Assembly: GCA_949282135.1 (NCBI GenBank)
Contig: CASDOR010000009.1
Coordinates: forward strand, 1 to 64,000
Source of the DNA: an uncultured Christensenella sp.
GTDB lineage: Bacteria; Bacillota; Clostridia; Christensenellales; UBA1242
Length of the DNA stretch: 64,000 nt
Direction of reading: 5' to 3'
Below are positions 17,766 through 62,810 of this stretch, in pieces. The stretch's first letter is position 1; each line of letters starts with the position of its first letter. Below the pieces are notes generated by a model that was given only the letters and a program-made list of their open reading frames with translations, was not told where the DNA came from and ran no database searches. The position numbers were made by a program, and so were the translations under genes.

Positions 17766-19314
17766 TCTTTTTATTTTACTTAAAAACAATTTCAACATGA
17801 TGATAGGTAGCATGAAAAGAAACAACAAAAATAGGTCAGATAAAAGTGTAATCTTTCTATTTCTGTTTCTTGTCCTATTCTTAGTGGCAATTTTCTCTTA
17901 CAATGCTTATAACACAATAGACGGATTTCGCAACCTTGGTGAAAAATTCGCAATTTTTAACGGACTTTTTACTATTCTTGTTACCTTACTCGTACTTGGA
18001 TGCCTGAGAGCAACAAGTCAAAACGCTCAAAATAGTGACAGCGATTTTCTCCTCTCCCTTCCTATAAAAAAGTATACTATAATATTATCTAAAACACTTA
18101 ATAAATATATCTACGACTTATTCTTTACCCTTGTAATTTTTGCCCCATATGTAGTAATCTACTCAATTTTTTATGGTACTAGCTTCCAGTTTATAATAAT
18201 GAGTATTCTTATCATCTTGCTTTTGCCACTACTAAGTGTTGGGCTTACATATGTAGTAGACTTCTTCATAACTAGGCTATTTAACAAAACAAAATTTGCT
18301 GGCATTTTAAAATCCTTATTCTCTCTTTTCTTGTTTGGCATGGTTTTTGTATTCATTATTGTATCATCAATGGACTACTCTTTCTTGGACGCAACTTCGC
18401 TTGAAAATTACTTTGCTTCTAGACCTTTTACGAACTTACTTTTAAATTTTATATTTTCACCAAATGTTTTAAACATAATTCTAACCCTTCTTCTTACAAT
18501 TGGAGTACTAGGCATTGGAACGTTACTATTTACCTTAAATTATGGAAAAAGTTTTGCTAGTTACAAATCAAATAAAACAATGCTTGACTTTACCTCTCCA
18601 AAATCTCCATTTTGTTTACTTTTTAAAAAAGAGGCAAATTACTATTTCTCTTCCCCAACCTACATGCTAAACACGGCAATTGGGCCTGTTATGATGATAG
18701 TGTTTTTGATTCTAATTTTAAGTCTTAACCTTCCTAATATGCTTGGAGCACTTGGAATTAGTAACGTAAATGAATACATCATGGGACTTAGCACGCTGGT
18801 TTTTTGCTTTATGTCATGCACTTCCACAATTTCCGCAAGTGCAATTTCTCTTGAAGGTAAAAATTTGTGGTTTTTAAAAGCACTGCCAATAAATATAAAA
18901 ACTATATTCTTTAGCAAACTTGCTTTACACAACATAGTAATAATTCCAATTTTAATCATTGTTTCCATTCTAATGTCTATTATTTTAAAATTTAGTTTTC
19001 TTTACTTTTTGTTCTTACTCATTATTCCTATACTAATTACCCTTGACCTGTCAATTTTAGGTTTATATATAAATCTAAAATTTCCGGTCCTTGACTTTGA
19101 CGATGAGGCTAGAGTTGTTAAACAAAGCATGTCAGTTATTTTATCTCTACTAATAGGAATGGTAATTGCTTTAATTCCTCTCGTTCTCTATTTAATTACA
19201 CCTCTTACAATTACCATAATTTGTTTTATCACGCTTTTTCTATTTATTTTACTATTTATCATATTTTCCTTGCTTTTATTCACAAATGGGGTAAAATTAT
19301 TTAAAAAACTATAG
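17758..19314 (+). CDS. ABC-2 type permease
   Basis: A 518-residue membrane protein with about a dozen hydrophobic helices, the membrane half of the transporter whose ATPase is encoded just upstream. The ATG at 17758 is placed five bases after AAGGAG; a GTG two codons earlier lies inside that site. The gene overlaps the ATPase by eight bases. An N-terminal basic patch (KRNNKNRSDK) precedes the first helix. The substrate is unknown. Confidence 0.85.
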   Translation: MRNLFILLKNNFNMMIGSMKRNNKNRSDKSVIFLFLFLVLFLVAIFSYNAYNTIDGFRNLGEKFAIFNGLFTILVTLLVLGCLRATSQNAQNSDSDFLLSLPIKKYTIILSKTLNKYIYDLFFTLVIFAPYVVIYSIFYGTSFQFIIMSILIILLLPLLSVGLTYVVDFFITRLFNKTKFAGILKSLFSLFLFGMVFVFIIVSSMDYSFLDATSLENYFASRPFTNLLLNFIFSPNVLNIILTLLLTIGVLGIGTLLFTLNYGKSFASYKSNKTMLDFTSPKSPFCLLFKKEANYYFSSPTYMLNTAIGPVMMIVFLILILSLNLPNMLGALGISNVNEYIMGLSTLVFCFMSCTSTISASAISLEGKNLWFLKALPINIKTIFFSKLALHNIVIIPILIIVSILMSIILKFSFLYFLFLLIIPILITLDLSILGLYINLKFPVLDFDDEARVVKQSMSVILSLLIGMVIALIPLVLYLITPLTITIICFITLFLFILLFIIFSLLLFTNGVKLFKKL

Positions 19315-49653: not shown

Positions 49654-49692
49654 GTACCCATAGCTCAATTGGATAGAGCGTTGGTCTACGGA
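49654..49692 (+). pseudogene. 5' half of host tRNA-Arg(ACG), at the left junction
   Basis: GTACCCA, the D-arm and the anticodon stem and loop (TTGGT, CTACGGA) are intact, then the sequence departs from a tRNA. The matching 3' half, whose acceptor TGGGTAC pairs with GTACCCA, lies at 62765-62810. Joined at TCTACGGA they give a perfect 77-nt tRNA. The gene is therefore split by the integrated element. Confidence 0.93.
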
Positions 49693-49764
49693 TTACTTGC
49701 TCAAGTCTAAAAGATACCACTATTTTAAAGGGTTTTAGGGGTTTTAAAGAGTACAAAAATAATT

Positions 49765-49800
49765 TTTTATAAAAATTTTATAAAAAACTTTATAAAAATC
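49765..49800. repeat. TTTATAAAAA repeats near attL
   Basis: Three close copies of TTTATAAAAA lie within 80 bases of attL. Similar sequence (TTATAAAAATTTTTATAAAA) lies near attR at about 62595-62625. They may be arm-type sites for the integrase, but the region is very AT-rich. Confidence 0.35.
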
Positions 49801-49819
49801 CTTGAAAAATCATTAATAT

Positions 49820-49896
49820 GCACCCTTAGCTCAATTGGATAGAGCGTTGGTCTACGGAACCAAAGGTTGGGGATTCGAGCTCCTCAGGGTGCACCA
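49820..49896 (+). tRNA. Complete tRNA-Arg(ACG) carried by the element
   Basis: A perfect 77-nt cloverleaf with encoded CCA: acceptor GCACCCT/AGGGTGC, D-arm, anticodon loop CTACGGA (ACG, arginine, read as ICG), T-arm GGGGA/TCCTC and CCA. It lies inside the element, 127 bases from attL and next to the integrase. The D and anticodon arms equal those of the split host gene, while the acceptor and T stems differ. It probably replaces the function of the disrupted tRNA. Confidence 0.95.
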
Positions 49897-49905
49897 AATC
49901 TATGG

Positions 49906-49933
49906 AAAGACACTTGTTTTAAGTGCCTTTTTT
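49906..49933 (+). terminator. Terminator of the element tRNA-Arg
   Basis: AG-CACTT and AAGTG-CT with one internal mismatch form a stem followed by six T residues, directly before the convergent integrase stop codon. Confidence 0.65.
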
Positions 49934-51364
49934 CTATCCACAAATTATCTTGTCAATTAAATCGCTTGCTTTCTTATCACTTTCTTTTGTGTAATGTGAG
50001 TAAATGTTAAGAGTTGTTTGAATATCGCTATGACCAACTCTTGCTGAAACTGTTTTTATATCCACACCATTAGTTATTTGCATTGTTATATTTGTGTGCC
50101 TTAGTCCATGCAAGGTGACATGTTTAAGGTTATTGTCTAATTCAAATTTCTTCAGCCAGTTGCTGATAGTTGCGTTAGACATATCCTTTCCGCAATTTTG
50201 AACAAATAGTCTATCTGTCTTTTCCCACAAATCGCCATGCTTTGCTTTTTCCTCATCCCACCAAACTTTATATTCTTTAAGCAAACTAACTAAATTTGAA
50301 GGTAATCTTATTATTCTTGTTGAGGAATTATTTTTGGTTGTTTTTGTGATTATTCCAAAACCATTCACATACATAGTGTTTTTGTTTATGGATATTATCT
50401 CGTTTTCAAAGTCAATGTCTTTCCATTCAAGCCCAGCAATTTCCGCACCTCTCAAACCTAAATTTAGACCTATAAGAAAAGCAACCTTTTTCCTTATATC
50501 TTTTTCTTCGTTTGCTTTTGCGACAAACTCTCTTATATCTTCTATTGTGTCGTATATCTCTTTTTTGCCCTTTGTTCCAGTAACTGACTTTGTATATTCC
50601 TTTGTCGCATAGTTAATTGGAATAAGCCTCTCTTGGACTGCTCTTGCTAAAATTGAATGTAGCATAGTTTTAAGTGATTTATTGGCACACCTAGAATATG
50701 GCACTTCTTCACTTTGCATTTCAAAATACGAATTAAAGTTTATATTTAGATAGTTGCATAGTTTTTTTGCTGTGTCTTTACTTACTCTATTTCCAACCTT
50801 TAAGGCGGTGCAAAGGGTGGCATTTGATATGCCACACTCTTGCCAAGTCTGTTTGAAAGAAACTTTTTTCTCTTTCATTGCTTGTCTTATATCTTTCTTA
50901 ACTATTATAATCTCTTTTTTATAAGTTCTTTCACAAAGCCAGTCGCAAAAATTTTGAATGACTGGTAAAGTCATTTCTTCCAAAGTATATAATCCAAACT
51001 TTTCTTTAAAGATTTTTAAATGTAATTTACAATGCGAGTAATGGTTATATGCATCATTATTATATCTTAATATATCCTCGACCCATTTTTCAGCATAGTC
51101 ATAAAAGTAAATTTTCTTACCCTCATTTGCTAAAATACCTTTTGACTTTCTATCCACCTCTTCTTTAAATTCCAGTTGACAATTTATTCTAAACTTTTCG
51201 ATTTCCTTTTTACCTTTGAGATTATTTGGCACCTTATAGGTTTTAACATGAAGCTTATATTTTTTTGTAAATGCGTCTTTACCGCTACAATAAAGTATAA
51301 AAGATAATTCGCCTTTCTTATTATATCTTTCTCTAACATGCATAATATCTTTACTGTTCTTCAT
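49934..51364 (-). CDS. int: Tyrosine recombinase (integrase) with HTH-like insertion
   Basis: A 476-residue integrase that recombines attP with the tRNA-Arg anticodon loop. An N-terminal arm-binding region, a core-binding domain (about 85-260) and the catalytic domain (about 265-476) are seen. Catalytic residues are Arg305 (GLRGAEIAG), His419 and Arg422 (HGLRHTN), His445 (VGHSDIQTT) and Tyr455 (NIYSHY). Unusually, about 70 residues (150-220) inserted in the core-binding domain read like a Cro/CI-type HTH (FKQTWQECGISNATLCTALK). It overlaps the excisionase gene by 14 bases and has its own GAGGAG site. Confidence 0.95.
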   Translation of the reverse strand: MKNSKDIMHVRERYNKKGELSFILYCSGKDAFTKKYKLHVKTYKVPNNLKGKKEIEKFRINCQLEFKEEVDRKSKGILANEGKKIYFYDYAEKWVEDILRYNNDAYNHYSHCKLHLKIFKEKFGLYTLEEMTLPVIQNFCDWLCERTYKKEIIIVKKDIRQAMKEKKVSFKQTWQECGISNATLCTALKVGNRVSKDTAKKLCNYLNINFNSYFEMQSEEVPYSRCANKSLKTMLHSILARAVQERLIPINYATKEYTKSVTGTKGKKEIYDTIEDIREFVAKANEEKDIRKKVAFLIGLNLGLRGAEIAGLEWKDIDFENEIISINKNTMYVNGFGIITKTTKNNSSTRIIRLPSNLVSLLKEYKVWWDEEKAKHGDLWEKTDRLFVQNCGKDMSNATISNWLKKFELDNNLKHVTLHGLRHTNITMQITNGVDIKTVSARVGHSDIQTTLNIYSHYTKESDKKASDLIDKIICG

Positions 51365-51563
51365 TTTTTATCTCCTCGTAACAACCAAAATTTAAATATT
51401 GTAGTAAACTATCAAAATTTACTAACGACTTATTTCCACTTAATATATATTGAATTTTATTGCTCTTACAAAGTGAGCGAATAAACCATTCACTTATTGC
51501 TGTGTCTGGGTCTAATTTTATTATTTCAGCCATACATTGCTGTATAGTTCTTAATCTTATCAT
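51351..51563 (-). CDS. xis: Excisionase-like winged-helix protein
   Basis: A 70-residue protein with the MerR-like pattern of excisionases: TAISEWFIRSLCKSNKI for the helix-turn-helix, then QYILSGNKSLVNFDSLLQYL for the wing. It probably bends attachment-site DNA and directs excision. The ATG at 51563 is nine bases after AGGAG; an ATG six codons earlier contains that site. The ribosome site lies in an arm of a long inverted repeat whose partner is covered by a leader peptide, so translation is probably regulated. The next gene is int. Confidence 0.85.
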   Translation of the reverse strand: MIRLRTIQQCMAEIIKLDPDTAISEWFIRSLCKSNKIQYILSGNKSLVNFDSLLQYLNFGCYEEIKNEEQ

Positions 51564-51571
51564 GATAATAT

Positions 51572-51720
51572 TCTCCTGCATTTAATAAATTTTAATTGAC
51601 CTTGCTGGAAATCGCCAAACGAAAACCACGCGAATGACAAACCTTGTCGGTCGAATTTGAAATTAAAATTTAAATAATGCAGTCTAGCACCTTAAACAAG
51701 ATGCGATTAAATGCAGGAGA
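51572..51720 (-). promoter_or_regulatory. Probable translational attenuator of xis
   Basis: On the minus-strand RNA, arm 1 (51720-51706) is exactly complementary over 15 bases to arm 3 (51586-51572), and arm 3 contains the xis ribosome site AGGAG. Arm 2 (51682-51661) can instead pair with the extended arm 3 (51597-51576) at 19 of 22 positions. The two structures exclude each other. Arm 1 overlaps the last five codons and stop of a short leader peptide gene. A small hairpin GACAA/TTGTC lies between. Confidence 0.8.
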
Positions 51721-51748
51721 TTATTAACTTGTAATTATTGTTTTTCAT
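51707..51748 (-). CDS. 13-residue leader peptide
   Basis: MKNNNYKLIISCI is encoded with a strong GAGGAG site five bases before its ATG. It starts 13 bases after the upstream gene ends. Its last codons and TAA stop lie within arm 1 of the inverted repeat that can hide the xis ribosome site. A ribosome on the leader would block arm 1 and free xis, as in erm and cat translational attenuators. The signal, if any, is unknown. Confidence 0.7.
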   Translation of the reverse strand: MKNNNYKLIISCI

Positions 51749-51760
51749 ATTAACTCCTCA

Positions 51761-52264
51761 TTATAATTTATCTTCAATACCTTCAAAGAATCTATTACAA
51801 TCTTCACAACCTTGATTTATTTTTGAATATATTTCGTCCGTGCTATCTTTACTCTTTAAATAAACAAAAATTTTATTATAAAGATTAAAAAGATAGTTTA
51901 TAGTAAAATTAGACATAAAATAATTAAATATAGGAAGTTTGAAAAATAACAAATGTATTTTCAATTTCCTTAGTCCTCTTAATATCTTTTTTGATAATAC
52001 TTTTATGTCATCTGTCAATCTATATGCAAATAGAGAAGATTCCAAAACATCTAGTTGGGTAAAGATATGCTCCCACTTGGAAACTCTAATATTTCTATCT
52101 GTAACTACGATTTCATTTTTTGAAAATTTGTTATTATATATTGTTTCTCTTATACTTGCCATTGCGTTTAAGCAAGGGGAAATATATTTCCTTATAATTG
52201 CTAAATCTAGAGTGTCAAACCCATTAAATTCTTTTGTTGAATCTACATACATTTCGTTTATCAT
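51761..52264 (-). CDS. Hypothetical element protein upstream of xis
   Basis: A 167-residue, mostly helical soluble protein that I do not recognise. A hydrophobic/aromatic stretch (KIHLLFFKLPIFNYFMSN, about 98-115) might contact a membrane but is flanked by charge. AAAGGAG precedes the ATG. It is the first gene of a leftward unit continuing through the leader peptide, xis and int, so a role in regulating or aiding excision is possible but only inferred. Confidence 0.6.
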   Translation of the reverse strand: MINEMYVDSTKEFNGFDTLDLAIIRKYISPCLNAMASIRETIYNNKFSKNEIVVTDRNIRVSKWEHIFTQLDVLESSLFAYRLTDDIKVLSKKILRGLRKLKIHLLFFKLPIFNYFMSNFTINYLFNLYNKIFVYLKSKDSTDEIYSKINQGCEDCNRFFEGIEDKL

Positions 52265-52327
52265 ATTTTTTCTCCTTTGAAATTTTAATTTTTAAATAGT
52301 TTTTAAATAAAATTGTTTTAATGATTT

Positions 52328-52356
52328 ATTAGATTATAGAAATCAACTTGTGTCAA
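52328..52356 (-). promoter_or_regulatory. Promoter of the xis-int unit
   Basis: TTGACA (52351-52356) and TCTAAT (52328-52333) on the minus strand have a 17-base spacer, about 60 bases before the first gene. Confidence 0.55.
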
Positions 52357-52543
52357 AATACATATTTAACCCTCCTTTTAAAAAAGGTTTTTTAGAAAGA
52401 TTTATTAAAGGTCTTTCTTCTGCCCCTTTCCCTTTCCGTATTAGGGTTTAAACTTGCACAGTTCTAAAAAATATTAAAAATTTTTCATTTTTTATTAAAA
52501 TTTTTTTATTTTATGATATACTTGATAAAAATGGAGAATAGAT

Positions 52544-53287
52544 ATGCCCACTAAACTTTTTCACTCAAAAGAAACTGGGAAGATAGGATTATCATGTGTG
52601 TCTGGTATGCATTATTTTACTAAATGGTATACCAAAGAAGAATTTAGCGAAATGTGTAAATTATATAACTATCAAGATGGCACATATTCAATTTTAAATG
52701 GAACAACCCTTGGTAATACAGAAAAAGATATATTAAAAGAAAGATTACCACATACTTTAAATACCATTTTTAAACATATTAAACTCAATTGGAACCCTCA
52801 TTGGATTTCAACCCATTCAAAAGTAGAAAGAACATGTATAGTTAAAATAATGCAAGGATTACATACACCTAATCTTTACAACACAATAAATTTAATTTTA
52901 TTTATATATCAACACATAACAGATTTTTGTCTTTGGTATTTATTTGGTACTGGAGCACCTATGACAAAACCTAATATTAAAAAACCTAATATAGAATTTA
53001 TAACAAAAGACGAATTCAAAGAAATTTTTAGAACTCAACTTAAAAATGCATTTGATAAAACTAATAAAAAATGGAACTATCATTGGATATCAAACCAAAC
53101 TAAAGTAAAAACGACAAGTCTAGTAAAAATTATAAAAGGGGAAACACTTCCAGACCTTACCTCTTTTTTAAGAATAGTGATGTTTATAAATAAGCATAAT
53201 GTTAATTTTAATTTCTGGTATTTATTTTCATATGACGAAAAGTTTACAAATGATGAAGATGAATACTTTGAGGAATATTTTGATTAG
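52544..53287 (+). CDS. Regulator-like protein with two HTH-like repeats
   Basis: A 247-residue protein built from an internal duplication. Residues ~65-135 and ~165-235 share the pattern WIS..TKV..TSLVKII.G...P.L followed by I..FI..H...F.FWYLF (first copy WISTHSKVERTCIVKIMQG, second WISNQTKVKTTSLVKIIKG). This resembles Cro/CI-type HTH units. It is divergent from the xis-int unit, where element repressors often sit. GGAG lies seven bases before the ATG. Repressor function is inferred from context and fold only. Confidence 0.6.
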   Translation: MPTKLFHSKETGKIGLSCVSGMHYFTKWYTKEEFSEMCKLYNYQDGTYSILNGTTLGNTEKDILKERLPHTLNTIFKHIKLNWNPHWISTHSKVERTCIVKIMQGLHTPNLYNTINLILFIYQHITDFCLWYLFGTGAPMTKPNIKKPNIEFITKDEFKEIFRTQLKNAFDKTNKKWNYHWISNQTKVKTTSLVKIIKGETLPDLTSFLRIVMFINKHNVNFNFWYLFSYDEKFTNDEDEYFEEYFD

Positions 53288-53457
53288 TCTTGTTTAAATC
53301 TATTCTCTTTTAAAATTTTCATAATCTCTTTTAATGGGGATAGGTTATGGGTATCTATTAAAAACTCTATTGTTTCTTTTAAATCTTTTGCTATCATATC
53401 AAATAGCATATTTGTTAACTCTTTATCAAATTTTCTTGAATCATTATAATTTTTCAT
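53284..53457 (-). CDS. Small hypothetical protein, convergent with the two-HTH regulator
   Basis: A 57-residue, helical, highly charged protein (MKNYNDSRKFDKELTNML, then FDMIAKDLKETIEFLIDTHN). AAAGGAG lies six bases before the ATG, which marks this minus frame as the real gene rather than the longer open frame on the plus strand. Its stop overlaps the end of the regulator gene by four bases. Function unknown; a regulator partner or antitoxin-like role cannot be excluded. Confidence 0.65.
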   Translation of the reverse strand: MKNYNDSRKFDKELTNMLFDMIAKDLKETIEFLIDTHNLSPLKEIMKILKENRFKQD

Positions 53458-53548
53458 TGTTTACTCCTTTTAATATTTTATCAGTTGACCCGCACATTAA
53501 AATTTTAAGATACTATGACATAAAAATCGAGCCTTTATTTCAACAAAT

Positions 53549-53583
53549 AAAAAAGACGGTATATTTTTTGATACCGTCTTTTG
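53549..53583 (-). terminator. Terminator of the PD-(D/E)XK-like gene
   Basis: AAAAGACGGTAT and ATACCGTCTTTT form a 12-bp stem with T-rich flank on the minus strand, ten bases after the stop codon. Confidence 0.88.
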
Positions 53584-53592
53584 CTTTATAAC

Positions 53593-54402
53593 TTAATTAT
53601 CAATCTCTAATAACAAGTATTTGAATTTAGGGTAATTTATTATGCCATAAAACTCACACTTAGCAACATTATAATCTTTCCATTCGCACTTGTATGACCC
53701 TTTTAATAATATTGGAAGTTTCCCATCATATACTTTTCCATAGTATTTTAAACAATCTTCTTTAGATTTGATAGGAACAATTTTTTCTTTTTGAGAGTTT
53801 GTTGGTTTATTAATTCTTTCGCCATTTTTGTCAACTGCTATGTAACTATAAAGATAACCATGTTTTACGCCAACCAACTTATAGTCTTTGTTTAGACTAT
53901 TATCATTTTTATATGGGGTGTAATAATTCTTATCGTTAGTAAATATTATTGCGAAACTTTTAACAATTTTATTTTCCTTATTAAATTGAAAGGGTATTCT
54001 ATCTTCTCTATTTGTTTTTGTCATTCTCTCCAGTCTTTCAATATCTTTTAGAAAGTCATGTGAACCAATGTTATGAGCACCTTGTGGGAAAGCATACACA
54101 TTTTTACCATTTACATTATATACAATTTTCTTTTCCATAAGTTTATGCTTAAGTTCAATAGCCACATAACTATTATCGCCTAAATTCACAATTATATCTG
54201 TGTATAACTTTTCGCCTTTATCATTTTTACTTAACTCGTTTTGACTCATAGACAAAACTTCAAGTTCAACATTATAGCCCTTTTCTTTTAATGCAATAGC
54301 AAGTTCAAATTGCAGTTGTTCTTCATTAGTAAAGATTTTGCCTTGTTTTTCAAAGTTGGAAATAATTTCGTTTAAAACATTAACTGAAAACTCTTTTTTC
54401 AT
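53593..54402 (-). CDS. PD-(D/E)XK nuclease-like protein
   Basis: A 269-residue protein. An N-terminal helical part (FTNEEQLQFELAIALKEKGYNVELEV) precedes YTDIIVNLGDNSYVAIELKHK (about 67-87), which has the D-x(n)-E-x-K spacing of PD-(D/E)XK nucleases. A C-terminal beta-rich half follows. No methyltransferase is adjacent, so it is not an obvious restriction-modification pair. As a monocistronic cargo gene under a putative XRE operator it may act in defence against other DNA or in element maintenance; this is inference. Confidence 0.6.
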   Translation of the reverse strand: MKKEFSVNVLNEIISNFEKQGKIFTNEEQLQFELAIALKEKGYNVELEVLSMSQNELSKNDKGEKLYTDIIVNLGDNSYVAIELKHKLMEKKIVYNVNGKNVYAFPQGAHNIGSHDFLKDIERLERMTKTNREDRIPFQFNKENKIVKSFAIIFTNDKNYYTPYKNDNSLNKDYKLVGVKHGYLYSYIAVDKNGERINKPTNSQKEKIVPIKSKEDCLKYYGKVYDGKLPILLKGSYKCEWKDYNVAKCEFYGIINYPKFKYLLLEIDN

Positions 54403-54425
54403 AATTCACACTCCTTAGATACAAT

Positions 54426-54442
54426 ATACCATATAAAGCGAT
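54426..54442 (-). promoter_or_regulatory. Element operator site A
   Basis: ATACCATATAAAGCGAT on the plus strand lies upstream of the PD-(D/E)XK gene. It matches site B at 16 of 17 positions and shares the AAAGYGAT half with the palindromic site D before the XRE gene. Confidence 0.55.
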
Positions 54443-54667
54443 AAAAAATCAAATATTTCAATGTGAAGAATATAAAATATAACCTACAAAGTTATAATCG
54501 TGGTTTATCCCCCTTTATTTCGTGTTATTCTCCACTTTTAACTAGGGGATATATATTTTCATTAGCCAAATATTAAACGAGGGGAAATAGGGAATAAAAA
54601 AATATAATCGAATATATGTGTATTTATTAAAATTATATTAATCAAACACTCTTGCAAATTTTACAAC

Positions 54668-54694
54668 AAAAAAACAACCTAAAATTTTAGGTTG
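54668..54694 (-). terminator. Terminator of the 325-residue cargo gene
   Basis: CAACCTAAA and TTTAGGTTG pair, followed on the minus strand by seven T residues. The rest of the 320-base gap (54403-54722) is AT-rich leader with no gene. Confidence 0.85.
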
Positions 54695-54722
54695 CCGAAA
54701 CTTTGCTTTATTAATATTTTAC

Positions 54723-55700
54723 CTAATCGTTATTATCTCTTAATCTCAAAACAATGCTGTCTATTTTTGATTTATATTTATTTATAAATTTATCTACTTG
54801 ATTTTTATCACATTCAAAGGCAACATGAATATCATAATCTTCGTTTTCGTTTAACTTATAATAAAATTGCTTTAAGCATTTTACGACTTTCTTCCAAGTT
54901 TCATAAGAAGTTGGCTCTTTCATTGTTTTAATATATTTTTCATAATAGTTATTAAATTCTTTTTCTATTCCAATATCAAAGTATGACATATCAATTATTT
55001 TCATAAGTGGATAGTTTTTACTTTCACTCAATTTTGAAAATATATCATTTCTTATTATAAGTTCAAGTAAATTATCTATCTTTTCGTCATTATAAAAATT
55101 ACTAAATGTTCCTCTTATACTTTTTGAAAAATATGTATCATAGGCGGGAATACAACAAATCGTTCCAAGCAAGATTTTGGTTGTCAATGTTTGACTTATA
55201 TATTCCTCGTTTTTATCTTTTCCTTTAAGATAAGATTTAGAATTATAAAATACACGATATTCGCTTAAATTTTTATTAATATCTTTGCCAATATCAACAA
55301 GAAGATTTTTAACTTTCTCTTTATTTTCTTTTATCGTTTTATAATCTAAGTCCCAAAGAATAGAATATTTTTCATTTAAGATAACATTAACAACATTTTG
55401 AAAGATAGAATTATCATATTGAAGAACGAAAGAACTACCTCGATACATTCCCCAACTTGCAAGATAAAAGCTTAAATTTAGAAGCGAGAGTTGTTTATCA
55501 TTTTCAGTCAAATCATTAAAAGTTTTACCTTTATATTTTTTAAACAACTTTAAATAAAAATCATGACAAACTCTCCAAGATTTATATCTTGTTTCAAAGC
55601 CCTTATTCTCTTTTTTTATAAATAATTCAACTGCGTTTTTAATGTATTCACTTTTTGTTTCATCTATCATAAACTTATCCTCGTTAACTTTATTTGACAT
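54723..55700 (-). CDS. Hypothetical cargo protein
   Basis: A 325-residue soluble, largely helical protein. The segment LSFYLASWGMYRGSSFVLQ (about 78-96) and the later TTKILLGTICCIPAYDTYF are distinctive and look conserved, but I cannot name the family with certainty. It has its own operator-bearing leader and terminator, parallel to the PD-(D/E)XK gene. AAGGAGC precedes the ATG. Monocistronic genes of this kind on integrative elements are often defence or anti-competitor genes; here that is only a suggestion. Confidence 0.6.
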   Translation of the reverse strand: MSNKVNEDKFMIDETKSEYIKNAVELFIKKENKGFETRYKSWRVCHDFYLKLFKKYKGKTFNDLTENDKQLSLLNLSFYLASWGMYRGSSFVLQYDNSIFQNVVNVILNEKYSILWDLDYKTIKENKEKVKNLLVDIGKDINKNLSEYRVFYNSKSYLKGKDKNEEYISQTLTTKILLGTICCIPAYDTYFSKSIRGTFSNFYNDEKIDNLLELIIRNDIFSKLSESKNYPLMKIIDMSYFDIGIEKEFNNYYEKYIKTMKEPTSYETWKKVVKCLKQFYYKLNENEDYDIHVAFECDKNQVDKFINKYKSKIDSIVLRLRDNND

Positions 55701-55726
55701 ATCTTGCTCCTTTCATAACAGCAAGT

Positions 55727-55743
55727 ATACCATATAAAGTGAT
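55727..55743 (-). promoter_or_regulatory. Element operator site B
   Basis: ATACCATATAAAGTGAT on the plus strand lies about 27 bases upstream of the 325-residue cargo gene. It is nearly identical to site A. Downstream leader sequence (CTTACAAAGTTATAA, ...) is also similar between the two genes. Confidence 0.55.
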
Positions 55744-55942
55744 ATTTTTCAATTATTTTTGTATAATGTAAATATTCTATTGCTTACAAAGTTATAAACA
55801 CGCCTTTAAACCGCCTTATTTCCGTTTATTTCCCACTTTACTTAAAATGATATTATTTTATTTAACTATACTTAAAAGAGGAAAATAAAGATAATTTTAG
55901 AATAATAATTACGATTATATTTTCGTTAATAATTAATAAAAT

Positions 55943-55969
55943 TTTTTGAGATTAGATTATTATTAAAAT
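55943..55969. repeat. Direct repeat copy 1 (27 bp)
   Basis: Twenty-seven bases beginning TTTTTGAGATTAGATTA recur at 62524-62550 near the right end of the element. It lies at the 3' end of the leftward three-gene unit. Confidence 0.75.
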
Positions 55970-56529
55970 TAATCGCCCTTTACAATCTCATTATACATAT
56001 TTACATTTTCAGCGGATATGTTTTCAAAATTGTTATGTTGTGTTATTAAAATCTTTGCTTTTAATTTCCCACATGTTATTTCTTTGGCAATCAAATCTTC
56101 ACAGTCCATTTCCTCGCATAGCACCGCCACCATTTCACAATCAAGTTTTTTAGCCTTAACTTTTCCTTTTGCCAATAGTTCGCTGTAAATTTCGCTATCT
56201 TCGTTTAAGTTCACATTATTTGCGTAAAGTCTTCCAACTCTAAACTTTTTATTCGCAACTACATTATTTAACCAAAAGGAATAGCATAAAGGTTCGGCAA
56301 AGTCAATATCTGGCAAATCATTGTCTTTTTTTCTTCTCCTAACTTTAACTGTCTTAGGAGTTTGGAAGTCCATTAGACCAAAAGGAATTTCAATATTAAA
56401 AACAACATTAGCAAGTTCCTCATTTTCAGTAAACCTATATAATTTTACTTTGAACTTTTTATCTTTGCTTTTCGGTATAGTTTGATATAGATATTTATCT
56501 AATTCCTCAAGACTATTAATCGTTATCAT
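55969..56529 (-). CDS. Hypothetical protein with repeat-rich C-terminal half
   Basis: A 186-residue protein. The C-terminal half (about 95-180) shows short beta-strand repeats (VGRLYANNVNL, KGKVKAKKLDCE, AKEITCGKLKAK), suggesting a small beta-helix like bactofilins or pentapeptide-type folds. Several cysteines are present. No family is certain. Its ATG overlaps the TGA of the preceding gene (ATATGATAA), so they are translationally coupled in a three-gene unit of unknown function. Confidence 0.6.
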   Translation of the reverse strand: MITINSLEELDKYLYQTIPKSKDKKFKVKLYRFTENEELANVVFNIEIPFGLMDFQTPKTVKVRRRKKDNDLPDIDFAEPLCYSFWLNNVVANKKFRVGRLYANNVNLNEDSEIYSELLAKGKVKAKKLDCEMVAVLCEEMDCEDLIAKEITCGKLKAKILITQHNNFENISAENVNMYNEIVKGD

Positions 56530-56909
56530 ATAAACTCCTTTTGCTCTACAAATTCATAATAAATCGTGCCTTTGGGGTACCGTATATTGTCAATTATCAA
56601 TTCTTCTTTCAAGTGGTCAGTTTTTATCCATTCACATTTTGCACAAAGTCCTTTCATACTTTCCACTAAAACAAAATCAACTGCCTTATTATTTTTAAGA
56701 TAGGTTAGTCCATATTCTTTTTCAATTTCTTTCGCTGTTTCTTCCGCTTCCCAATAACTCATAGCACAAGCAATTAAAATCAAATTTTCGTCTATATGTG
56801 CCGAACTAACTTTATTCTCTTTTATGATTTCTTCACTTAGTCCGCTTTTGATTTTTTCTAACTTATCCTTTCTAAAAATTAAATCAATACAACCATAAGG
56901 CAAAACCAT
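56526..56909 (-). CDS. Hypothetical protein
   Basis: A 127-residue soluble protein of mixed alpha/beta type. The centre (LIACAMSYWEAEETAKEIEK) is helical. A CAKCEW pair of cysteines lies near residue 92. I do not recognise the family. It starts ten bases after the previous gene and its TGA stop is followed at once by an in-frame TAA; the next gene's ATG lies within the stop. Confidence 0.55.
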   Translation of the reverse strand: MVLPYGCIDLIFRKDKLEKIKSGLSEEIIKENKVSSAHIDENLILIACAMSYWEAEETAKEIEKEYGLTYLKNNKAVDFVLVESMKGLCAKCEWIKTDHLKEELIIDNIRYPKGTIYYEFVEQKEFI

Positions 56910-56918
56910 AACTCACTC

Positions 56919-57221
56919 CTAAATATCTTTAATTTTATCTTTCCAGTATTGGTCTAAAAACAAATCTTCCATTTCAATAGATAGCCTATATAAATGCTTT
57001 AAAACAATTATATTTAAGATATAAGTGCGTGCGGTGTTGCCTAGATTACTATCAACTTTTTTCATTTTTTCTTCAGGTGATAAATCTTTGAATTCATTAA
57101 ATATTTTTGACTTTTCTATATCCATAACAAAGTTTTCATCATCGATTAAAAGTTCAATATACTTTCTTAAATCGCTTTTAATAAACTTTGAAATAATCTC
57201 TAAACCTTCTTCATTTTTCAT
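56919..57221 (-). CDS. Hypothetical small helical protein
   Basis: A 100-residue, strongly helical, acidic protein (IISKFIKSDLRKYIELLIDD, then LSPEEKMKKVDSNLGNTART). No family was recognised. It follows the BspA-like lipoprotein gene by 14 bases and leads two further unknown genes, all leftward, so the four may be one transcript. Confidence 0.55.
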   Translation of the reverse strand: MKNEEGLEIISKFIKSDLRKYIELLIDDENFVMDIEKSKIFNEFKDLSPEEKMKKVDSNLGNTARTYILNIIVLKHLYRLSIEMEDLFLDQYWKDKIKDI

Positions 57222-57235
57222 TGTTGCTCCTATAA

Positions 57236-60200
57236 CTATTTCTTGGTGTAAATATAATAATCTCCATCTTCAGTTTTATCATAATTTTCGCTATTTAAAG
57301 ATTCATTAGAATTTTCTTCATTATCTACAATGCTTTTTAAAACTTTAATAGTAGTTGCATATTTCAATAAATATCCGCAATAAGAGGATGGATGTAATAG
57401 GTTGTATACATTGGAGCTATTAATTATAATATTAGTTAGATTTGAACAGTTATTAAATGCATAACCTCCAATACTAATAACACTACTTAGAATAGTAATT
57501 TCTGTTAAACTTGCACAGCTCGCAAATGCATAATTTCCAATACTAGTAACGCTATCTGGAATAGTTATTTCTGTTAAACTTTCACACCTAAAGAATGCAT
57601 AATCTCCAATACTAGTAACGCTATTTGGAATAGTTATTTCTGTTAGATTTGAACAATCATCAAAAGCAGAATTTTCAATACTAGTAACACTATTTGGAAT
57701 AGTTATAGAAATCAAATTTGTATAACTATAAAATACATAATTATAAATTATTTTGCAACCTTCATTTATTATAAAGTTTTGTTCATCTGTAGATATGACA
57801 CCACATAGGATTAAATATGGATTAGTTTCGTTGCCTAAATATTCCCCATTTTTATATACATTGTAATTTAAACTTTCACAATTAGAGAATGCAAAATCTC
57901 CAATACTAGTAACACTATTTGGAATAGTTATTTCTGTTAGATTAGAACAACCATTAAAAGCAGAATTTCCAATACATGTTATTGCTTCAGGTATTACTAT
58001 TGAAGTTAGATTGGTGCAATCTTTAAAAGCTGAATCCTTAATGTTTACAACCTTATAACCATCAATTTCAGAAGGAATTTCAATGTTGGTATAATTGTTT
58101 TTGCCATAATCGCTTAAACCATTGATGGAGTAGGAGTTTGTGAAAGGGTTTAATTCTAAATTAAAAATAGATTCCCATTTTGCCGTTAGTGTTATATTTG
58201 TTGTATAAATAAAAGTTCCATCTTTAACTAAATCTTCACCTAAATACCATCCTATAAAATCATAACCAGTTCGAGTTGGGATTGGGAGTGTAAGAGTTCC
58301 AAGATATGGAATAGAAATATCATCAAAATTTTCACTTGTTCCAGTGTTTAAGGATACAATATAGTTATTTTTGAAATCAACCTTTAGAGTGGTTATAATT
58401 AATTTTGTTGTTACTGAAATTGAATTTGATATTGAAATTAATTGGTCTTCACTATCATACCAATAAGCAGAATATCCATCGTTTGGTGTAGCAACTAAAG
58501 TTACTGTTTTATTTACATTCAAAACAATTTCATTATTAACTGAGCCCAGTTCTTCATTAAGATTAGTAATTGAAATTAAACCGTTTTGCAAACCTTCATA
58601 TGTGTTTTGACATAGAGTAATTTCTTGAGTTGGTGTTGGCAAGACAATCTTTTCTAAATTAGTAAAGCCATAAAATGCATAATCGTTTATTTGAGTTAAA
58701 TTACTGCAAGAACTCAAATCTATTTTTTCAAGATTACCGCAACCACTAAATGCGCCATAAGGCACTTGAGTTATGCTTGTAACTGTTATGTTTTTTAATG
58801 ATTTAGGAATATAAAATGTAATACTTTCACTTTCTGAATATTTTTGATTTACTGCAACAGAGTTTTCATTTTCTACTTCACCAAAAATAGCACCAAATAA
58901 AGCATTTTTACCAGTTGCGTCTTTACTCATTCCGATAAATGGTAAAGTTAGATTTGTTAAATCACCATTAGTTTCTGAAAATATTGCATTTCCAAATGCA
59001 ACAACACTATCTGGTATTACAACATTAGTTTCTACATTACCTTTATAGCCATATACAATATTATTTATATATACAACTCCATTTGGTTGAGAGTCATACC
59101 AAGGTGTTTCGTCGAACATTCCTTTTTTAATATATCTAACAGTATCGGGAACAGTTATACTTGACAAATATGGCATACGATTAAATTCTTCTGAATCTAT
59201 TGTAACGCAACCATTTTCAAACACTACCGCAGTTATTTTAGGAATGTTGGAATTTTGATAAGGCATAAATATACCAGTTGGAAGAACGGCATTCGCACTT
59301 AATGTTAAAGTTATTCCAGTATTTGAAATACCGGCATTATAGAAAATATAGTTATCTCCGCCACTTTGATAATCACCGAAAGTAGTTGAAGCAAAATATA
59401 TTGATTTTATATTATGGCAATCATAAAATGCAGAATTTCCAAAGAATGTTATATCGCCTAAAATTTGTATGTCTTCCAACGAATAACAATAACTCATAGC
59501 GGAATTGCCAATAGAGGTTATATTTTCTGGCAATGTTAAAGATTTTAAGCTACCGCAATATTGGAACATAGTATTAGGAATTTCAGTCATTCCTGTTGAA
59601 ATTGTTGCAGATATTAAATTATCACAATGTCTAAATGCCATTCCGCCTACTGAGGTTATACTATTAGGTAATACTAAATTTTGTAAAGTGATACAACCAT
59701 CAAATGCCATTGCCTCGATTGTTTTTATTCCTTCTTGTAAGGTTAAATTTCGTAAACCAGTGCAATTTTGAAAAGCATTCATTCCTATTGTTTCAACACT
59801 ACTTGGAATGATTAAGTTGTCTAAAGATGAACAAGAATTAAAAGCATTTTCTCCTATTAAATGCACGCTATTTGGTATTTCAATAGTTGTTAAATTTGAG
59901 CAATTTTGAAATGCAGATGAATATATCAATTCAATAGTATTTGGCAAGGTTATAGTTTCTATAAATTTATTATCCTTAAATGCATTACTATTAACTGAAA
60001 TAACACGCAAACCATTATATAATCTTGGAAGAGTTATATTTATAGATTCTCCATTATAACCAGTTATTCCATAGAAAGAATAATCATTAGTCAATTCAAA
60101 ATTATATATTTCAGAGTAATCATTACTCCATTTAGCATAGAGAGTTATATTATTTTCAATTTTTGTATTAAAATCAAATTTATCAACATAATTTGAATCT

Positions 60201-60427
60201 AAATACCAGCCCATAAAATCATAATTGTTTCTCGTTGGTATAGGTTTATTTGCGGTTTTCCCATTTTCCACATATTGACTTTGTATTTCACTGCCACCAC
60301 AAGAATCAAAAGTTACCACAAAAGAAGTAGGTGTAGTATCAGGTGGATTATCATTACACCCAGTGAATAGAATTGTTCCACATAAAATTAAAAATGCTAA
60401 ACAAAATAATGATTTTAATTTTTTCAT
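57236..60427 (-). CDS. BspA-like leucine-rich-repeat lipoprotein
   Basis: A 1063-residue exported lipoprotein. A signal peptide ends in the lipobox LFTGC (Cys24). An InlB-type repeat follows (YDFMGWYLDSNYVDKF, about 68-83), then many BspA-type repeats of the form 'AF..CSNLTEITIPNSVTSIG' at about 23-residue spacing. A second InlB-type unit (YDFIGWYLGEDLVKDG) lies in the middle before a second LRR block. The near-identical C-terminal repeats suggest recent expansion. Such proteins bind host or bacterial partners. It is cargo of the element, under operator site C. Confidence 0.92.
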   Translation of the reverse strand: MKKLKSLFCLAFLILCGTILFTGCNDNPPDTTPTSFVVTFDSCGGSEIQSQYVENGKTANKPIPTRNNYDFMGWYLDSNYVDKFDFNTKIENNITLYAKWSNDYSEIYNFELTNDYSFYGITGYNGESINITLPRLYNGLRVISVNSNAFKDNKFIETITLPNTIELIYSSAFQNCSNLTTIEIPNSVHLIGENAFNSCSSLDNLIIPSSVETIGMNAFQNCTGLRNLTLQEGIKTIEAMAFDGCITLQNLVLPNSITSVGGMAFRHCDNLISATISTGMTEIPNTMFQYCGSLKSLTLPENITSIGNSAMSYCYSLEDIQILGDITFFGNSAFYDCHNIKSIYFASTTFGDYQSGGDNYIFYNAGISNTGITLTLSANAVLPTGIFMPYQNSNIPKITAVVFENGCVTIDSEEFNRMPYLSSITVPDTVRYIKKGMFDETPWYDSQPNGVVYINNIVYGYKGNVETNVVIPDSVVAFGNAIFSETNGDLTNLTLPFIGMSKDATGKNALFGAIFGEVENENSVAVNQKYSESESITFYIPKSLKNITVTSITQVPYGAFSGCGNLEKIDLSSCSNLTQINDYAFYGFTNLEKIVLPTPTQEITLCQNTYEGLQNGLISITNLNEELGSVNNEIVLNVNKTVTLVATPNDGYSAYWYDSEDQLISISNSISVTTKLIITTLKVDFKNNYIVSLNTGTSENFDDISIPYLGTLTLPIPTRTGYDFIGWYLGEDLVKDGTFIYTTNITLTAKWESIFNLELNPFTNSYSINGLSDYGKNNYTNIEIPSEIDGYKVVNIKDSAFKDCTNLTSIVIPEAITCIGNSAFNGCSNLTEITIPNSVTSIGDFAFSNCESLNYNVYKNGEYLGNETNPYLILCGVISTDEQNFIINEGCKIIYNYVFYSYTNLISITIPNSVTSIENSAFDDCSNLTEITIPNSVTSIGDYAFFRCESLTEITIPDSVTSIGNYAFASCASLTEITILSSVISIGGYAFNNCSNLTNIIINSSNVYNLLHPSSYCGYLLKYATTIKVLKSIVDNEENSNESLNSENYDKTEDGDYYIYTKK

Positions 60428-60462
60428 AACCCTCTCCTTATAAATTCATAATATAGTATATT

Positions 60463-60479
60463 ATAACTTACTAAGTGAT
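60463..60479 (-). promoter_or_regulatory. Element operator site C
   Basis: ATAACTTACTAAGTGAT lies upstream of the lipoprotein gene. It is a near-palindrome and shares TAAGTGAT with the other three sites. Confidence 0.5.
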
Positions 60480-60509
60480 AAAAGTCAAGCAAAGGCAATC
60501 GTCAAAATA

Positions 60510-60538
60510 AAAAATGTGGTGTTTGAAACCACATTTTT
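60510..60538. terminator. Perfect hairpin with A/T flanks upstream of the lipoprotein gene
   Basis: AAAAATGTGGT (60510-60520) and ACCACATTTTT (60528-60538) pair perfectly. It lies between two divergent promoters and may insulate the lipoprotein gene from transcription entering from the right. Confidence 0.7.
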
Positions 60539-60692
60539 GTATTTCTCTATTAAAATTTTAAGAGGAGAGAAGTCGTTTTAAATTAACTCTCTTTCAATAT
60601 CTATCTTATCTGTTATTTACGAATTTTAATTTTTGTATATGTATATTAAATCTTTCTTATTTATAACATACAAAGCATTAAAAATCAATCAA

Positions 60693-60709
60693 ATCACTTT
60701 CAAAGTGAT
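60693..60709 (+). promoter_or_regulatory. Element operator site D (perfect palindrome)
   Basis: ATCACTTTCAAAGTGAT is a perfect 17-bp palindrome about 90 bases upstream of the XRE gene. It is the best-formed of four related sites and the likely autoregulatory operator. Confidence 0.65.
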
Positions 60710-60797
60710 ATTCTATTGCTTTACACTTACATTTTGCCTTGATAGTGGCGATTATGATTTTATGGGCATAATTTATAATTATATTGGAGGTAAAATT

Positions 60798-61145
60798 ATG
60801 AACAAAACACCACCAAAAAACGACTTTTCTATGACTGAAAAAGAAAGAAAAGATTTTATATTTAGAATAGGGACAATAAGGCAAAATGCTCATATGTCTG
60901 CAAGGGAACTTTCTCTTCTTATTGAGAAAAATGCTGGATATATTAATCGCATTGAAACAACTGGCGATTTCTTACCAAGTATGGATATATTTATTAGTAT
61001 TCTTAAAGCTTGCAATGTATCTGCTGAAGAATTCTTCTATCACGACCCAGTAAACTATAAGCAAGATATGGAACTACTTAGCACATTTAAAAAACTAACT
61101 CCAAATCAACGACAACATTTAATTGAACTATTTAAAGATATTTGA
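60798..61145 (+). CDS. XRE-family transcriptional regulator
   Basis: A 115-residue regulator. The ATG at 60798 follows TTGGAGGTAAAATT; longer in-frame starts run through the promoter region. A Cro/CI-type HTH covers about 23-80 (IGTIRQNAHMSARELSLLIE, then KNAGYINRIETTGDFLPSM). The C-terminal tail ends ELFKDI. The TGA stop is followed directly by an in-frame TAA. It probably binds ATCACTT-type operators A-D. A truncated, 90%-like copy lies outside the element at 63079. Confidence 0.9.
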   Translation: MNKTPPKNDFSMTEKERKDFIFRIGTIRQNAHMSARELSLLIEKNAGYINRIETTGDFLPSMDIFISILKACNVSAEEFFYHDPVNYKQDMELLSTFKKLTPNQRQHLIELFKDI

Positions 61146-61316
61146 TAAGTCTATTTCGTCAACAACTTTGTCTTTAATAAGTCCAACAATAACTGCTTTA
61201 TATCCTCGTTTATTCATTTCGTATTGAATAGTTTTCATTATCTCAACCACATCTCACTCAAGATTGCTATTTTTAGTTTCACAAGCTAACAACTTTGGTT
61301 TATTATCTTCAAACAT
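61128..61316 (-). pseudogene. Small gene with in-frame TGA at a Trp-like position
   Basis: An ATG at 61316 behind AGAGGTG opens a 62-codon frame ending at TAG (61128). It is interrupted only by TGA at 61254-61256, in the context NSNLE-TGA-DVVEIMK where tryptophan would fit. The C-terminal part reads AVIVGLIKDKVVDEIDLSNI. The last 18 bases overlap the XRE gene. A homologous C-terminal end lies at 63338-63409. Family unknown. It is either a decayed gene or translated by TGA readthrough. Confidence 0.65.
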
Positions 61317-61423
61317 ATATACACCTCTAAATTAAAATCAACTAGTTTATTATGTTCTTCAATAAATTTAGCACAAAAAAAGATAGGTTATCAAAAACCT
61401 ATCTATTTTTTGTATAACAACTT

Positions 61424-62215
61424 TTAAATTTTATCTAAAATATCGTCAGCATCATGAACATAAACTTTATCTAAACAATATTTATCTTTATCATAATAAT
61501 GTCCGTCATAGAAAATTTTTCCTTGACACTTTTTAACCTCATTAATAAATGCGTTATATTGTTCCATCGTCCATTCTGTTTCATAAATTGGCTTATCTTT
61601 TACCAACTCTGGACTATAACTTATAATTTTCGCATTTGCTGGATATTTTGTAAGTAGTTGATTAGTAGGATGAAAATTCTCTGGCTTAACAAGTGTGATA
61701 TATTCCAAAACTCCATACTCACGATTTTTCCATAGATATTCAAAATGAACTTTACCATGTTTCCAATGCTTTTCAAGTCAATTACGACTTATCGTTGGTC
61801 TGGCATTATCAAATATCAAAATCAAATGAATATGATATCTATTAAATCCATTACAATAACATTCGACTTTTCTTATTATTTTGAAACTACCATACTTATA
61901 CCTCGCATTTGCTAAAAACTTATTAAATTCGGCTAAAAGATTATCTCACGCCATCTCTCCACTCGTTCCAAGAGTCATAAACACGCACTTATCATAGTCT
62001 AAACACACATTGAATAATTTTTTACGACTTCTTTTTAAATTTTTTGCTTCCTGCCTCTTCGACATAAAAGGTTGGTCTCTCTTTATTACCTTTTGTGGTG
62101 TAGGAGGCAGGCTTGAAACATATTCATCATTAAAAAATGGATTGTATGGATGAATGTTGACAATAATTCGATTTTCATAAACCGAGATTTTTATTTTTTT
62201 ATCTTCTTGAATCAT
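61424..62215 (-). pseudogene. rep: HUH replication initiator/relaxase with two in-frame TGA codons
   Basis: One frame of 264 codons runs from an ATG at 62215 (AAGGAGAAAAAA upstream) to TAA-type stop at 61424. TGA interrupts it at 61946-61948 and 61778-61780, both where tryptophan is expected (GEMA-TGA-DNLLAEF; TISRN-TGA-LEKHW). No frameshift is present. Motif 1 is CVFMTLGTSG, motif 2 is RYHIHLILIF (HUH), and a conserved Tyr lies in NREYGVLEYITL. This fits rolling-circle Rep/HUH relaxases and would let the excised element replicate or be mobilised. It is inactive if TGA is read as stop. Confidence 0.78.
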
Positions 62216-62764
62216 CTTTTTTTTCTCCTTAATATATAAAATTTTAGTTTTATGTGAAAAACTAATAAAAACATAAAAATGAAAATGTTGTTACGTCATA
62301 ATAAATCCTCCTTAATTTAAAAATGGATAGAGTTAGGGGATAAAAAAATAATAAATATTTTTTACCCCTATAATAAATTTAGTGTAATTTTTTTCGCGTG
62401 AAAATATTTTAAATCAAAAGTTGGGAGTTTTATTCGTAATAAACATATACCTCATAACTTACGATATATTATTCGTTATATTAAAAATAGGAAGATATTA
62501 AATAATTAGATTATTAATAAAAATTTTTGAGATTAGATTATTATTAAAATAAATAAACTTTTACTTTACATTGACACAAAGCCAAAACGCAATCGTTATA
62601 AAAATTTTTATAAAAGATTTTCACCAAAACTTGCAAAAACTAAGACTACTTACACAATTCTCATAATTTACACAACTTAGAAAACTTACCATCTCATTTT
62701 GCAAAACCTACTAAAATAACACACACTAGAAAGGTAAGAAAACCTATTTTATCAATAACAGTTA
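62216..62764. other. Right-end noncoding region with direct repeat and attP arm
   Basis: About 550 AT-rich bases between rep and attR. It contains the second copy of the 27-bp direct repeat (62524-62550), TTATAAAA-type repeats near 62595-62625 like those beside attL, and the attP left arm ending GTTA before TCTACGGA. It could also hold the rep origin, but I cannot point to a nick site. Confidence 0.5.
62524..62550. repeat. Direct repeat copy 2 (27 bp)
   Basis: Identical to 55943-55969, in the same orientation, 6.58 kb away, in the right-end noncoding region. Confidence 0.75.
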
Positions 62765-62810
62765 TCTACGGAACCAAAGGTTGGGGGTTCAAGCCCCTCT
62801 GGGTACACCA
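62765..62810 (+). pseudogene. 3' half of host tRNA-Arg(ACG), at the right junction
   Basis: It begins with TCTACGGA and continues with the 3' anticodon stem, variable loop, T-arm, acceptor strand TGGGTAC and CCA. It complements the 5' half at 49654-49692 exactly. A tRNA-type terminator follows. Confidence 0.93.

Follow-up and report, generated by a model that had tools for sequence, protein, structure and literature searches.

Possible translational gating of xis and rep by a leader ORF and in-frame UGA codons in an integrative element of an uncultured Christensenella sp.

Tn916 is regulated by transcription attenuation and antitermination. The element described here resembles it as an integrative element of Gram-positive bacteria with excision genes under expression control, a comparison of regulation and not of sequence relation (for terminators, see PMC11658703). 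The attenuators of erm and cat genes combine a short leader open reading frame (ORF) with a strong Shine-Dalgarno (SD) sequence, pairing of the leader with the downstream ribosome site, and ribosome-dependent opening of that site. At our locus, a leader ORF with a strong SD is likewise present, and both the pairing and the opening are predicted; here, however, the pairing arms are unconserved and the regulated gene is a putative excisionase gene. Stop-codon recoding is known from phages (Borges et al. 2022, as cited in PMC11025619 and PMC9523058), and code 4 phages are treated in PMC10879173. As far as the citing papers describe it, recoded phages infect code 11 hosts, have UGA translated as Trp in their active-phase genes, and spare the integrase, as is the case here. 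Unlike in those phages, only the rep, xis, and leader genes contain UGA here, usually as the first Trp codon, the carriers are small integrative elements, and a suppressor tRNA was not found. Release factor RF2 (prfB) likewise regulates its own expression through the reading of an in-frame UGA near the gene start, and the host prfB has such a UGA; reading involves a +1 frameshift there, whereas here the frame is kept and Trp is required. Finally, bacterial UGA codons are naturally leaky, with a near-cognate tRNA inserting Trp, which makes a plausible decoder for our element. Such leakiness is a background error, whereas the positions found here are conserved under selection. For B. subtilis carrying wild-type RF2, a leakiness of 6% is quoted (Karow 1998, as cited in PMC7918605); in E. 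coli, leakiness increases under starvation and cold (PMC11126739).

The window analyzed here is a stretch of 64,000 nucleotides (contig CASDOR010000009.1) from a genome assembly of 1.25 Mb. It harbors a tyrosine-recombinase integrative element, as indicated by an integrase, an excisionase-like gene, and a tRNA attachment site with core repeat (Table 1). The element splits a host tRNA-Arg gene, whose 5' half starts at 49654 (GTACCCA...) and whose 3' half extends to about 62806 (...TGGGTAC), and the acceptor-stem ends pair. The split is seen at 49654–49692 and 62765–62806. On its minus strand, the element carries rep, cargo including a BspA-type repeat protein, one ORF without assignment, the leader, xis, and int; the name xis is provisional and derives from gene position and a weak profile match. 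The cargo gene at 57236–60427 encodes a BspA-type leucine-rich repeat protein of 1063 aa with InlB-like repeats, and a similar one is present in L112 (loci of related elements are numbered in this way). A Cro/C1-type HTH domain (Pfam HTH_26, residues 159–210) is inserted within the integrase, the closest named relatives of which belong to uncultured Clostridia MAGs, with the gut of roe deer and a rabbit sample (Lapin) among their sources. In L104 and L105, int and xis are several kb apart. A DNA search of 99 relatives revealed only short, chance-like matches outside the element. Within the same genome, the end of the leader is matched at 29 of 31 bases by G000:C9:99973-100003 (about 17973–18003 of locus L030), 48 kb away and antisense to a giant repeat-protein gene. 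This place was considered as an attachment site and dropped; it sits within that gene.

Table 1. Features of the integrative element and of its leader–xis and rep regions (window coordinates; strand in parentheses).
Feature	Position (strand)	Remarks
Integrative element	49685..62772 (.)	~13.1 kb; inside host tRNA-Arg gene, anticodon loop; att core TCTACGGA at each end
tRNA-Arg(acg)	49820..49896 (+)	intact, element-borne
int	49934..51364 (-)	tyrosine recombinase; 8 Trp codons, all TGG
xis	51351..51563 (-)	excisionase-like, 70 aa; directly before int, weak TIGR01764 match
Arm 3	51572..51586 (-)	ATTAAATGCAGGAGA; holds xis SD AGGAG (51577-51573)
Promoter-like TTGGCG-18-TAAAAT	51589..51618 (-)	between the arms; candidate leaderless xis promoter
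Arm 2	51660..51673 (-)	partner in minimum-energy fold: bases immediately upstream of arm 3
Small hairpin GCATCTT...AAGGTGC	51687..51704 (-)	just past leader stop
Arm 1	51706..51720 (-)	TCTCCTGCATTTAAT; final leader codons and stop
Leader ORF	51707..51748 (-)	MKNNNYKLIISCI*; 13 codons, ATG 51748 to TAA 51707; SD GAGGAG 51759-51754
62-codon ORF after rep	61128..61316 (-)	in-frame TGA at codon 21
rep	61424..62215 (-)	HUH replication initiator; TGA must be read at Trp codons 90 and 146 for an open frame
UGA codon 146 of rep	61778..61780 (-)
UGA codon 90 of rep	61946..61948 (-)	first Trp codon of the gene

A preliminary description had proposed a leader-peptide attenuator for xis, and the observation on which it was built holds. 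The 13-codon frame is present before xis, its GAGGAG following directly on the stop codon of the upstream ORF, and arms 1 and 3 are perfectly complementary over 15 bases that cover the xis ribosome site. This is the longest perfect inverted repeat in 231 bases, and none of 300 dinucleotide shuffles reached this length (mean 7.9, maximum 12). The folding energy corresponds to a z-score of −3.55, and the predicted unpaired probability of the xis SD rises from 0.00 in free RNA to 0.53 with a ribosome footprint at the leader stop. Arm 2 had been described as a competitor for arm 3, but it does not compete for the xis SD itself: in the minimum-energy fold its helix is nested inside the arm 1–arm 3 helix, and the alternative pairing, as read from the sequence, could reach ATTAAATGC and not AGGAG. 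An Rfam search of the region returned tRNA and a sub-threshold snoRNA match only. The small hairpin past the leader stop is resembled by a hairpin in L112 (GCATCTT...AAGATGC).

A mini-ORF with a strong SD precedes xis in 8 of 12 divergent relatives, compared with about 0.13 expected from shuffling (a nominal value, shared ancestry included); shuffles of the window's own pre-xis region contain one in roughly 2% of cases. This recurrence makes translational control of xis, the general idea of the preliminary description, a sound one. The peptide sequences differ widely between relatives. Given the excess of mini-ORFs over chance and the lack of arm conservation, the leader looks as if it were under selection, while the arms may be specific to the window's element. 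As a separate observation, a partly palindromic GTGTAYTTTT block followed by a TATAAT-like block is found upstream of xis in L103, L108, L109, L112, L110, and L102, possibly an operator and a promoter; a second xis group (L052-L054, L057-L060, L062) has another inverted repeat before xis, CTGGACTTGTA and its complement.

These blocks bear on a different explanation, in which xis has its own promoter in this region and leader and arms are of little weight. The site at 51618–51589 would serve in the window, and TATAAT together with a conserved GTGTACTTTT box in the relatives, where L103, L108, L110, and L112 show aligned GTGTAYTTTT and AT-rich −10-like blocks at a comparable distance from xis. 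However, promoter matches in the window's region do not exceed the shuffle frequency, and the strong-SD leader is kept well above chance. We consider a promoter of this kind possible, albeit on the unlikely side.

The relatives further revealed UGA codons in this region. Most of the relatives' leaders stop early at TGA (L098, L103, L106, L108, L109, and L110), as does the second mini-ORF of L102, and TGA stands in frame within xis in L097, L098/L039, L099, L100/L101, and L111. Relatives without a leader mostly have UGA within xis; in L104 and L105, xis has neither leader nor UGA. Among xis homologues of the whole family, inside stops are TGA at 11 places and TAA at 3. Such UGAs are missing from int, where the frames examined stay open with TGG; a small number of int homologues have inside stops, which comprise 1 TGA versus 4 TAA or TAG. 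Instead of the arms, the relatives share UGA codons, located in rep and in either the leader or xis. In the window, leader and xis are both free of UGA, and xis has TGG for Trp where relatives have TGA.

With TGA translated as Trp, rep of the window matches Pfam REP_ORF2-G2P (PF23343; E 9.7e-8, residues 78–174), and both UGAs lie within the match. The HIH motif at residues 128–130 is invariant, and the fold predicted for the read-through protein agrees along about its entire length with models of phage G2P-type Reps, so that profile, motif, and fold agree on HUH/REP_ORF2-G2P membership. A PDB fold search with Rep yielded nothing at E ≤ 0.001, and no relatives of Rep were found in viral contigs, phages, or plasmids. 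Inside stops in homologues of the Rep family are exclusively TGA, never TAA or TAG. Of 20 Reps, 19 have TGA as their first Trp codon, compared with 21 of 66 later Trp codons; after collapsing of relatives, the counts are 14 of 15 and 15 of 51, respectively (p ~5e-5 by permutation; L091, whose first Trp codon is also TGA, was tabulated but excluded from this test). The position of the first-Trp TGA ranges from codon 26 to codon 97. Exceptions are the Rep of L079 and, outside the family, L269; TGA also occurs in two Reps from other families of the order, in one of them at the first four Trp codons and in the other not at the first. Downstream of the shared UGA, dN/dS was 0.09–0.21 in four close pairs, demonstrating purifying selection. 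With UGA in frame where Trp is expected and the sequence beyond it under selection, the element shows one mark of a recoded (code 4) mobile element; the other, a UGA-reading suppressor tRNA of its own, was not found in the elements scanned. Regarding the short ORF at 61128–61316, its homologues have N, K, or E at the position of TGA codon 21.

The UGAs in rep and xis could also represent decay or neutral remnants of a code 4 ancestor and have no regulatory role. In agreement with this, every Trp codon is TGA in the Reps of L077, L092, and L095, and a UGA-reading tRNA was found neither in the elements nor in the host: ARAGORN detected no suppressor tRNA in the window, L034-L050, L096-L115, and further elements, and of the loci checked after a pattern search of 309 genomes, ARAGORN supported none as a UCA tRNA. 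A search for terminases in 112 genomes, intended to reveal code 4 prophages, returned matches mostly free of inside stops and without TGA-only bias, and thus no candidate for a possible UGA-reading helper phage was found. However, this reading is hard to reconcile with the absence of TAA and TAG inside Rep, with purifying selection downstream of UGA, and with a concentration of TGA at the first Trp codon that int, with its TGG codons, does not share. We therefore regard it as unlikely.

An erm/cat-type inducible attenuator, in which a leader ribosome stalled by a drug or by stress frees the xis SD, is partly supported, namely by leader, hidden SD, and predicted opening in the window's element. 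The comparison with other elements argues against it. The nearest element, L096, shares the leader and is 97% identical in DNA over the region, yet 4 of 74 pairs of the window fold are broken in it, and none of its changes is compensatory. Five pairs are changed in the arm 1–arm 3 helix and its extension, of which three became wobble or one-sided and two break. On a window-like structure, L096 reaches −27 kcal/mol versus −54 for its own optimum, and the changes hit the xis SD, which is already 0.40 open; opening upon occupation of the leader is predicted for the window and not for L096. The compensatory changes anticipated by the preliminary description were not seen, with L096 giving no covariation and close homologues amounting to two sequences. 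In the other leader-bearing relatives, neither hiding of the SD nor its leader-dependent opening is consistent, and shared arms are absent. Homologues without a leader, named beforehand as evidence against the attenuator, do exist in four related lineages (L097, L099, L100/L101, L111), and the widely diverging leader peptides contain no conserved stall sequence. Drug- or stress-dependent induction of this type is, in our view, highly doubtful.

Very unlikely, too, is a function of the arms as DNA, i.e., as binding sites of a recombinase or regulator or as ends of an invertible segment. A 15-bp inverted repeat with 120 bp between its arms upstream of xis and int would suit such a role; however, the orientation in L096 is unchanged, relatives lack the arms, the att core is 1.9 kb distant, and arm 3 owes its sequence to its coincidence with the xis SD. 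That the host generally reads UGA as Trp, which would fit the persistence of elements with UGA-containing genes in these hosts, deserves hardly any credence and is already contradicted: 7 of the contig's 60 long ORFs terminate in TGA, prfB is present with its UGA-dependent CTTTGAC frameshift site, the tRNA-Trp is ordinary (CCA, 5-bp anticodon stem), and ARAGORN scans of tRNA places in this genome turned up no UCA tRNA. Barring leakiness, UGA is therefore a stop codon in the host, which uses code 11.

Taken together, we see about an even chance that translation is the step at which the mobilization genes are gated, with leader coupling acting on the window's xis and UGA readthrough on Rep. Synthesis of Rep would need ribosomes that read two UGA codons as Trp, and replication would start upon low, variable readthrough or upon supply of a UGA-reading tRNA from another element. 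The putative xis would be controlled by the short, strongly initiated leader ORF, the end of which pairs with the xis SD; we infer that, on a long transcript, xis is translated mainly while the leader end holds ribosomes. Points against such gating are the promoter-like site between the arms, which could yield xis mRNA without the leader, the unconserved arms in L096, the failure to find a suppressor tRNA in the elements examined, and the exceptions among relatives (L104 and L105 at xis, L079 and L269 at the first Trp codon of rep). In most relatives, control of xis would also pass over a UGA, either in the leader or in xis itself. As the window's leader and xis lack UGA, the two gates are linked through the relatives only. 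A further idea, which we think improbable, is that the elements sense changed UGA reading: a UGA-reading tRNA, e.g., from an incoming code 4 phage, or a drop in RF2 activity would allow translation to proceed past the early UGA of rep, xis, or the xis leader, and only then would replication and excision start. In literature searches that covered few subscription papers, no description of rep or xis genes gated by UGA turned up for integrative elements.

If translational gating holds true, a stop codon would act as a lock on replication and excision, the two steps that put the host at risk, under an ordinary genetic code. Stop-codon recoding would then extend from late genes of phages to a gate at the first Trp codon of rep and in xis, and gene finders that apply code 11 would truncate or overlook such genes. 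It would also provide a testable account of how such elements keep quiet.
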